Below are positions 16,352 to 19,672 of a stretch of DNA of 34,608 nt, in pieces (the stretch's first letter is position 1; the number at the start of each line of letters is the position of its first letter). This DNA is from Verrucomicrobiota bacterium (lineage in GTDB: Bacteria > Verrucomicrobiota > Verrucomicrobiia > Chthoniobacterales > UBA10450): contig QHQE01000105.1 in the NCBI GenBank assembly GCA_003219265.1, forward strand, positions 1 to 34,608, written 5' to 3'. A program made the position numbers and the translations under genes. A model generated the notes under the pieces. The model was not told the origin of the DNA. It made no database searches and worked only from the letters and a program-made list of their open reading frames with translations.

Positions 16352-17407
16352 ATGAACACAGTGATCGCATGCGGTGGAACCGGCGGACATCTTTTCCCCG
16401 GCATCGCCGTGGCCGAGGTGCTGCGTGATCGCGGCCACGAAGTCATGTTGTTGATCTCGGAAAAGGAAATTGATACACTCGCGCTTTCCGGAGGCGCACG
16501 TTTCCGATTCGAAAAGTTGCCCACAGTCGGATTGCCTTCGCCATTCTCGCCTGCGATTCTGGGTTTTATCCGGCGATTCGGCGCAAGCCTTTCGCTTTGT
16601 CGATCCATCTACCGCAAGTTCAAACCACAAGTTGTTCTCGGCATGGGCGGCTTCACCTCCACCGCGCCCGTCCTCGCTGGGCGCATGCGCGGCGTTTCCA
16701 CTTTTATTCACGAATCGAACGCCGTTCCCGGAAAAGCCAACCGGCTGACCGCGCGGATGGTGCGTGCCGTCCTGCTCGGATTCAAGGAATGCGCGCCCTT
16801 TTTTCCAAAAGCGCGCACTGAAGTCACCGGCACGCCCATTCGAACCGAGCTCAAACGCTTGGATCGACATGTTGCGCGTCAAAGACTGGGCCTGCGCGAA
16901 GACCTCACGACGCTGCTCGTGATGGGCGGAAGCCAGGGCGCGAGTGGGATCAACCAGGCCATCATCAAATCGCTGCCCTCATTGCATGATGTCCGTCTCC
17001 AGGTCATCCATCTCTCCGGTGGGCGCGATGAGCGTCTGGTTGCGGATAATTATCGCCGCGAAAATATTCCGGCTTTTGTCGCCGCTTTCCACCATCGGAT
17101 GGAGGAAGTTTATAGTGCCGCCGATCTTATTGTTTCGCTGCCGGGCATCTTAATTCCCTTTCCTTATGCGGCCGATGATCATCAATCGCGCAACGCGGAA
17201 ATCTTTGCGCGCGCTGAGGCCGCGATTCTCCTGAAGGAATCAGAGCTTTCCGGCGAATTACTGGCGGGCAAAATCAAGGAATTGATCGGCGACGCGCAGA
17301 AGCTTCGGTGCATGTCCGAAAACTGCTCGCGCCTGGCGCCGGAAAACGCCGCTGGGCTGGTGGTTGCAACCATGGAAAAATATAGCACTCATGACGCGCG
17401 CCTCTGA
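16352..17407 (+). CDS. murG: MurG (lipid II synthase) lacking a conserved block
   Basis: Peripheral membrane glycosyltransferase that adds GlcNAc from UDP-GlcNAc to lipid I. It is 351 residues, with the N-terminal GGTGGHLFPGIAVAEVL, GMGGFTS (about 97-103), IHESNAVPGKANR and the C-domain GGSQGASGIN (192-201). The conserved stretch normally found between DLIVS and LPxILIPF, of the form RSGAxSLxExxxxG, is missing: Ser262 is followed directly by Leu263-Pro-Gly-Ile-Leu-Ile-Pro-Phe. About 14 residues (42 nt) are absent in frame. In E. coli MurG structures this loop contacts the UDP-sugar, including a glutamate (Glu269) at the ribose, so activity is doubtful. The 3' end overlaps the murC start. Confidence 0.9.
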   Translation: MNTVIACGGTGGHLFPGIAVAEVLRDRGHEVMLLISEKEIDTLALSGGARFRFEKLPTVGLPSPFSPAILGFIRRFGASLSLCRSIYRKFKPQVVLGMGGFTSTAPVLAGRMRGVSTFIHESNAVPGKANRLTARMVRAVLLGFKECAPFFPKARTEVTGTPIRTELKRLDRHVARQRLGLREDLTTLLVMGGSQGASGINQAIIKSLPSLHDVRLQVIHLSGGRDERLVADNYRRENIPAFVAAFHHRMEEVYSAADLIVSLPGILIPFPYAADDHQSRNAEIFARAEAAILLKESELSGELLAGKIKELIGDAQKLRCMSENCSRLAPENAAGLVVATMEKYSTHDARL

Positions 17408-19007
17408 AATAGACCTGACGAAGCTGCTCATAAGTGAGCACCACAAGATTCATCTGATCGGCGTGGCTGGGAGCGGAATGAGCGGGATCGCCGCGCTTTT
17501 GCTCGAGCTCGGGCACGAGGTTAGCGGTTCGGATAAAGTCAGCACCCTGGAGACGGATCGATTGCAGCGTCTCGGTCTGCGTTTTCGTGAAGAACATCGC
17601 GCGGAGGATGCGAGTGACGCCGAGCTCGTCATCTTTTCTTCCGCCATTAAGATCGACAATCCGATCCTGCTAAGCGCACGCGACTCTGGAAAGCCGGTCG
17701 TGCGCCGGGCCGAGGCGCTCGCTGCCATCATGCGCGGCAAGCGCGGCATCGTCATCGCTGGAATGCACGGAAAAACGACGACCTCGGCAATGGCCGCGCA
17801 CGTTCTGCGCGAAGGTGGACTGCATCCGTCACATTACGTCGGCGCGGAAATCCCGATTCTTGGGACCAACGCGCACTGGGACCCGCGTGGCGAATATTTT
17901 GTCGCGGAAGGCGACGAAAGCGATGGGACGCTCCAGTATTTTCATCCCGAACTCACCCTCATTTTGAACATTGAAGAAGAGCATCTCGATTTTTATGCCG
18001 ATCTTGCCGCCATCGAAAAAGTTTTCGCTCAGCTCATCGCGCAAACGAGCGCAACTGTTTTTTACAGCGCCGATGACGCGAACACTGCGAAATTATGCGC
18101 CGAGCGAAAAGCCGCCATCTCTTATGGTTTTTCTGAAAAAGCGGACTATCGCGGCGCCGATGTTGAGTTGCGCGATTTCGCGTCCGTTTTTCGCGTTTAT
18201 CGTCAAGGCAAACAACTTGGCGAAGCGGTGCTGAATGTTCCCGGCCAGCACAACGTCCACAATGCCATCGGCGTGATCGCGCTCGCCACCGAACTCGGGA
18301 TTGCCTTTGAAAAAATTGCCGCCTCGCTGCGCAAGTTCGAGCACGCGCGTCGTCGTTTTGAAATCAAATACGCGAGCGATCGTTTTCTCCTGGTCGATGA
18401 TTACGCGCATCATCCCACGGAAATTCGTGCCACGCTTAAGACGGCGAAATCAACCAGGCGCAAGCGTGTGCTGACCATGTTTCAGCCACATCGTTTTTCA
18501 CGAACGAAAGCGCTGTGCAAAGAATTCGGAAGCGCGTTCGATGATGCTGACCGCGTCGTGGTAACGGATATTTACGCGGCAAGTGAGGCGCCGATTCCCG
18601 AAATCAGCGGTCAAACCATCGCGGATGAAATTGTGGCGCACGGTCATGGGGGCGTGAGTTACCAGCCGCGTTTGGAATGGATGCATCGAAATGTCGGAAA
18701 CATGCTGAACTCCGGCGATCTCGTGCTGAGCCTTGGCGCGGGCAACATTCACGAGCAATTGTCGATCCTGGCCGCAGATCTCGTGATCGCAGAAAAGTTG
18801 AAAGCGATCGTCGGGGAAGAGGGCGATGTCCGCCTATACGAGCCGCTCTCTAAACACACCACTTTGCGCGTCGGCGGTCCGGCGCAGTTTTGGGTTGAAC
18901 CGCGCAATGAAAGCGCCTTCGCAGAATTGATTCGCTTTTGCCGGCACGAAACTCTTTCGCTTTTCGTCATCGGCTCGTGCGCGACGGTGGCATCCGCGGG
19001 GTGGTAG
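17391..19007 (+). CDS. murC: MurC (UDP-MurNAc:L-alanine ligase) fused to a broken MurB N-terminus
   Basis: Residues 1 to about 475 are a full MurC, which adds L-alanine to UDP-MurNAc: VAGSGMSGIAALL near the start, the ATP loop GMHGKTTT at 124-131, EGDESDGT, NIEEEHLDFY, DDYAHHPTEIRATL and FQPHRFSRT are all present. Without a stop the frame continues into the MurB N-terminus (KHTTLRVGGPAQFWVEPR at about 488-505, then LFVIG ending at 528). It then shifts into ten residues unlike MurB and stops at 19007. The frame begins at ATG 17391, inside the end of murG; a TTG at 17364 also lies in frame. The intact ancestor was probably a MurC-MurB fusion. Confidence 0.92.
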   Translation: MTRASEIDLTKLLISEHHKIHLIGVAGSGMSGIAALLLELGHEVSGSDKVSTLETDRLQRLGLRFREEHRAEDASDAELVIFSSAIKIDNPILLSARDSGKPVVRRAEALAAIMRGKRGIVIAGMHGKTTTSAMAAHVLREGGLHPSHYVGAEIPILGTNAHWDPRGEYFVAEGDESDGTLQYFHPELTLILNIEEEHLDFYADLAAIEKVFAQLIAQTSATVFYSADDANTAKLCAERKAAISYGFSEKADYRGADVELRDFASVFRVYRQGKQLGEAVLNVPGQHNVHNAIGVIALATELGIAFEKIAASLRKFEHARRRFEIKYASDRFLLVDDYAHHPTEIRATLKTAKSTRRKRVLTMFQPHRFSRTKALCKEFGSAFDDADRVVVTDIYAASEAPIPEISGQTIADEIVAHGHGGVSYQPRLEWMHRNVGNMLNSGDLVLSLGAGNIHEQLSILAADLVIAEKLKAIVGEEGDVRLYEPLSKHTTLRVGGPAQFWVEPRNESAFAELIRFCRHETLSLFVIGSCATVASAGW

Positions 19008-19672
19008 TTCATCCGTGCGGCGGCGATTTCGACCGGATCGAGATCAACGGAACCGAAATCACAGCGGGCGTCGGCGCAAAACTAAAAGAACTTGCATACG
19101 CCGGAAAAGCGGCCGGCTTGACTGGCCTCGAATGGATGGAAGGAATTCCCGGCGCGATTGGCGGCGCGTTGCGCATGAACGCGGGCGCGATGGGCGCGCA
19201 AACTTTTGAAAACGTGGTGCGTCTTCGTTATCTTGATGCCAACGGCGAAGCGCACACGAAAAACCGCGACGAACTGGAAGTGCACTATCGCAACGTGCCG
19301 ATCTTGGAACAAAACTACGCGGTCCGCGCGGTTTTTCGCGGCCAGGCGGCGCCGGCCGAGGAGATCGTGCGCAAACTGAAAGCGTCTCAGGAAAAGCGGC
19401 GCTCTTCGCAGCCGATGGCCAAAAGCGCGGGCTGCATTTTCAAAAATCCAGGCCCTTGTCCGGCGGGGAAACTTATCGATGAGCTGGGGTTGAAACATTC
19501 GCGCGTGGGAAATGCGCGCGTCTCCGAAGTGCACGGCAATTTCATCGTCAACGATGGCGGCGCGACCGCATCGGAAATGCTTGAGTTGATTGACAAGATC
19601 AAAGCGACCGCGCGCGCAAAGCGTGGGATCGAGCTGGAGACGGAAGTTAAAATCGTGGGAGAACCGGCATGA
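18974..19672 (+). pseudogene. murB: MurB (UDP-N-acetylenolpyruvoylglucosamine reductase) C-terminal part, frame-broken from murC-murB
   Basis: From about 18974 a second frame carries the rest of MurB, the FAD enzyme that reduces UDP-GlcNAc-enolpyruvate to UDP-MurNAc. LVRDGGIRGVVVHPCGG is followed by AGVGAKLKELAYAGKAAGL, GLEWMEGIPGAIGGALRMN, SAGCIFKNPGPCPAGKLIDE (with Cys at the usual Ser/Cys acid position), and HGNFIVNDGGATASEML. The motif RGSNL, expected between FVIG and LVRDGG and needed for FAD binding, is missing. The join fits a 16-nt deletion, which also changes frame. The piece has no convincing start of its own; an in-frame TTG at 18938 would read out-of-frame residues first. As read, MurB should not be functional. 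Confidence 0.85.

Follow-up and report, generated by a model that had tools for sequence, protein, structure and literature searches.

A 16-nt deletion interrupting the murC-murB fusion of a draft Verrucomicrobiota genome, most probably a local assembly error

The fusion of MurC with MurB is a described verrucomicrobial trait (PMC4803751), and both murCB and murG count among the essential genes of Verrucomicrobium spinosum (PMC12283558). The MurB/C fusion enzyme of V. spinosum carries the MurC and MurB domains in one frame (PMC4803751), as do the fusions encoded by the relatives of the organism studied here, a member of the same phylum. We analyzed a 34,608-nt stretch of DNA (hereafter, the window) that makes up contig C67 of the draft genome of an uncultured soil bacterium related to Candidatus Udaeobacter (2.09 Mb in 200 contigs, 84% complete). 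The window has the MurC-then-MurB domain layout of the verrucomicrobial fusion, which its relatives encode in one frame. Unlike the V. spinosum enzyme, however, the copy in the window is 16 nt short and divided between two frames, which an assembly error appears to have caused, and neither the intact frame nor the GRGSN motif was found in it.

The original prediction held that FVIG is followed directly by LVRDGG in another frame of the MurB half, and re-reading the frames and coordinates in the sequence bore this out. The murC frame reads LFVIG at 18960-18974 (CTT TTC GTC ATC GGC, with FVIG at 18963-18974), and LVRDGG (CTC GTG CGC GAC GGT GGC) is read in the other frame, from base 18974. The 16 nt are absent from the MurB half, RGSNL is gone and the frame is broken, so that the murC open reading frame (ORF) runs past the junction to a stop and the rest of murB continues, open, in the other frame (Table 1). 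Domain searches matched the rest of murB to positions 70-301 of the 303 in the NF010480 model. As written, the ORF should not encode a working MurB, in agreement with what had been predicted.

Table 1. Position of the murG and murC-murB features in the window.
Feature	Position	Strand	Evidence
murG	16352..17407	+	TIGR01133, 222 bits, below the 250-bit cut-off; sole PF04101 match in the genome
Junction of the 42-nt private deletion in murG, in frame (14 codons), conserved RxGAASL-type stretch lost	17133..17141	+	
MurC and the initial part of MurB, to a false stop past the junction	17364..19007	+	ORF list; TIGR01082 above cut-off; MurB model positions 11-66 at the end of this frame
Junction of the 16-nt private deletion, RGSNL lost, frame broken	18974..18975	+	Relatives 16 nt longer; GRGSN in 108/109
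Rest of MurB in the other frame (from TTG at 18938 in the ORF finder)	18976..19672	+	NF010480; Pfam MurB_C

A search of genome contigs retrieved 80 loci, the closest of which came from drafts of Chthoniobacterales and Candidatus Udaeobacter with no more than 82% protein identity. The close relative loci that align across the junction have 16 extra nt there. Local alignments of a wider set identified 59 loci that are exactly 16 nt longer and a few that are 17-19 nt longer, consistent with the size first proposed for the deletion. The loss of RGSNL was likewise upheld, because protein alignments showed GRGSN in 108 of the 109 relative loci and GR*SN in the other one. In this exception (L006:3393-3637), one differing base puts a stop inside the murB motif, and this could be either genuine variation or an error in sequencing. 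The shift of -16 was seen in the window only (1/110 murCB loci), and 104 of the 110 murCB loci carry an uninterrupted single frame. Thus, the alignment with related MurC-MurB fusions proposed in the original prediction showed that relatives keep one frame and the motif at this locus, rather than the separate MurB start in homologues that would have explained the break away.

Another deletion, not mentioned in the original prediction, is present in murG, 1.8 kb upstream of the murB break. Here, ADLIV is followed directly by SLPG and relatives have a RAGAASLAEFAAF-type stretch between them, with exactly 42 nt extra at the site in 47 of 53 aligned loci. The murG deletion probably has the same origin as the one in murB. 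We saw no further large private deletion in the window, where only 0-3 relatives per position were available outside about 14-24 kb.

Defects of the same class affect unrelated genes of the draft, as shown by the 42 nt missing from murG, a 57-nt deletion in another contig and N-gaps of the wrong size. This survey took at most the first 20 kb from each of contigs C1-C96, for a total of 843 kb including the window, and passed over a few contigs consisting entirely of N, which we took for withheld sequence. The reference was a single 846-kb contig from a relative with a more complete genome, which allowed the comparison of 143 genes. The 57-nt deletion is the third private deletion written without N; it lies in frame in a TPR-like gene (L189:5469), and each of the 8 relative genomes covering both sides has exactly 57 nt more. 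N runs explained three further apparent frame breaks in the draft, and two candidates (C64/L220:9051, -32; C22/L178, -1 plus a 34-nt gap) were set aside as weak or poorly conserved matches. A stretch of approximately 60 nt (L177:11021-11084) has dozens of matches, on both strands, in the genomes of relatives and is apparently a near-palindromic, dispersed repeat that this family commonly carries.

The N runs inside contigs have lengths of 1, 11, 16, 21, 33, 53, 58, 59, 71, 93, 97 and 185, an assortment that is as a scaffolder writes gaps. All six N-gaps in or near coding sequence that could be measured fall short, by 17-58 nt. They comprise 53 N for 70 nt (-17, on which several genomes agree), 16 N for 37 nt (-21, in most genomes), 21 N for 43 nt (-22), 71 N for 103 nt (-32), 97 N for 126 nt (-29, sized from one genome only) and 93 N for 151 nt (-58). 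A run of 58 N stands for a variable stretch of about 150-230 nt, and the N-gaps of L181, L183, L235, L246 and L175:6034, which lacked relatives aligning to both flanks, were left out of the sizing. The disagreement in length between the N-gaps and the relatives argues against stretches masked by the database. Furthermore, the three N-less deletions of the draft measure 16, 42 and 57 nt; with an underestimate of 17-58 nt, gaps truly of these sizes would be estimated at or near zero and could close without N.

Together, the three private N-less deletions and the consistently short scaffold gaps strongly favor a local assembly error as the source of the 16-nt loss in murB, to which we assign a probability of about 0.93. 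The draft would have been scaffolded from shorter contigs with gap lengths consistently underestimated, and contig ends a few tens of unassembled bases apart would have been joined with no N between them. Such joins would have produced the false deletions of 16 nt in murB, 42 nt in murG and 57 nt in the other gene. We infer that all of them came from the same scaffolding or gap-handling step and that N was dropped when gap estimates were near zero. In the living organism, the murC-murB fusion is very probably intact. Two observations count against an assembly error. One N run has a length of 1, indicating that the assembler writes N for at least some gaps estimated as very short, and the 57-nt deletion would require an underestimate matching the largest that we measured in coding sequence. 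Of the three options in the original prediction, a local assembly deletion is therefore the one that best explains the data; a second MurB was not found in the available part of the genome and a lesion carried by the population is unlikely.

The latter option, a real and recent deletion that some or all of the sampled population carries and that was faithfully assembled, is the most plausible of the alternatives, albeit an improbable one. Neither N nor any ambiguous base marks the murB junction in the contig, and a very recent loss is compatible with the codon-position constraint described below. Yet this reading needs two essential single-copy genes, 1.8 kb from each other, to have been hit and a third deletion to have arisen elsewhere, and we found no second murB or murG copy in the available genome, in which PF04101 matched once. 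Nor do the junctions have the direct repeats expected of slippage, as the flanks of each window junction share only about 2 nt, which is little for such a mechanism. Hairpins were also rejected as a common cause, because strong folding in some relatives, like a high GC content, is a feature of the missing murG segment but not of the murB segment.

It is very unlikely that another MurB is present and that the window copy is a tolerated pseudogene. A second gene could sit in the missing part of the draft, but the search for it suggested in the original prediction found MurB_C only once in the available genome (84% complete), in the window itself, and the murC-murB fusion of relatives is intact at the locus. 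Moreover, the constraint on murB equals that on murC. On both sides of the murB break, the sequence differs from relatives at 5-10% of second codon positions and 43-55% of third positions, much as in murC and murG (rows L083 and L088, on the wrong strand, were left out). The relaxed constraint expected of a pseudogene was not apparent on either side, though a very recent loss would not show. By this sequence measure, murB has been under constraint until at least very recently. We consider it just as improbable that the organism represents a free-living verrucomicrobial lineage with a recent loss of MurB function and an altered MurG, its peptidoglycan pathway changed or absent. Least credible of all is that the written sequence yields a working protein through programmed frameshifting or through a MurB with its own start. 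The downstream frame does stay open as far as 19672 and might begin at the TTG at 18938, but neither route restores the missing RGSNL residues and nearly all murCB loci are uninterrupted.

Local assembly errors are known from metagenome assemblies and leave incorrect genes in public databases (PMC7111523). As in the errors described there, unsupported joins and wrong gap lengths would account for incomplete or incorrect protein-coding genes in this draft; here, however, they are deduced from how the draft differs from relatives and from its own N-gaps of the wrong size rather than from read support. The case calls for caution, because short N-less joins in this draft would delete pieces of conserved genes, including motifs that a reader would call functional. 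Family searches barely register such deletions, as the remainder of murB passes the Pfam cut-offs. Hence, a gene loss claimed on the basis of such a draft needs to be backed by reads. Similar defects were identified in the drafts of relatives, where a scan of 94 loci revealed N-less, frame-breaking losses in murG in two drafts (approximately 40 nt at L004:2828-2834 and 37 nt at L079:2819-2834) and where an N-gap interrupts murCB in L084 (1/110 loci). These three cases correspond to a rate of roughly one or two per hundred in murG and murCB among comparable drafts. With L004 and L079, murG is a gene that has been hit repeatedly.
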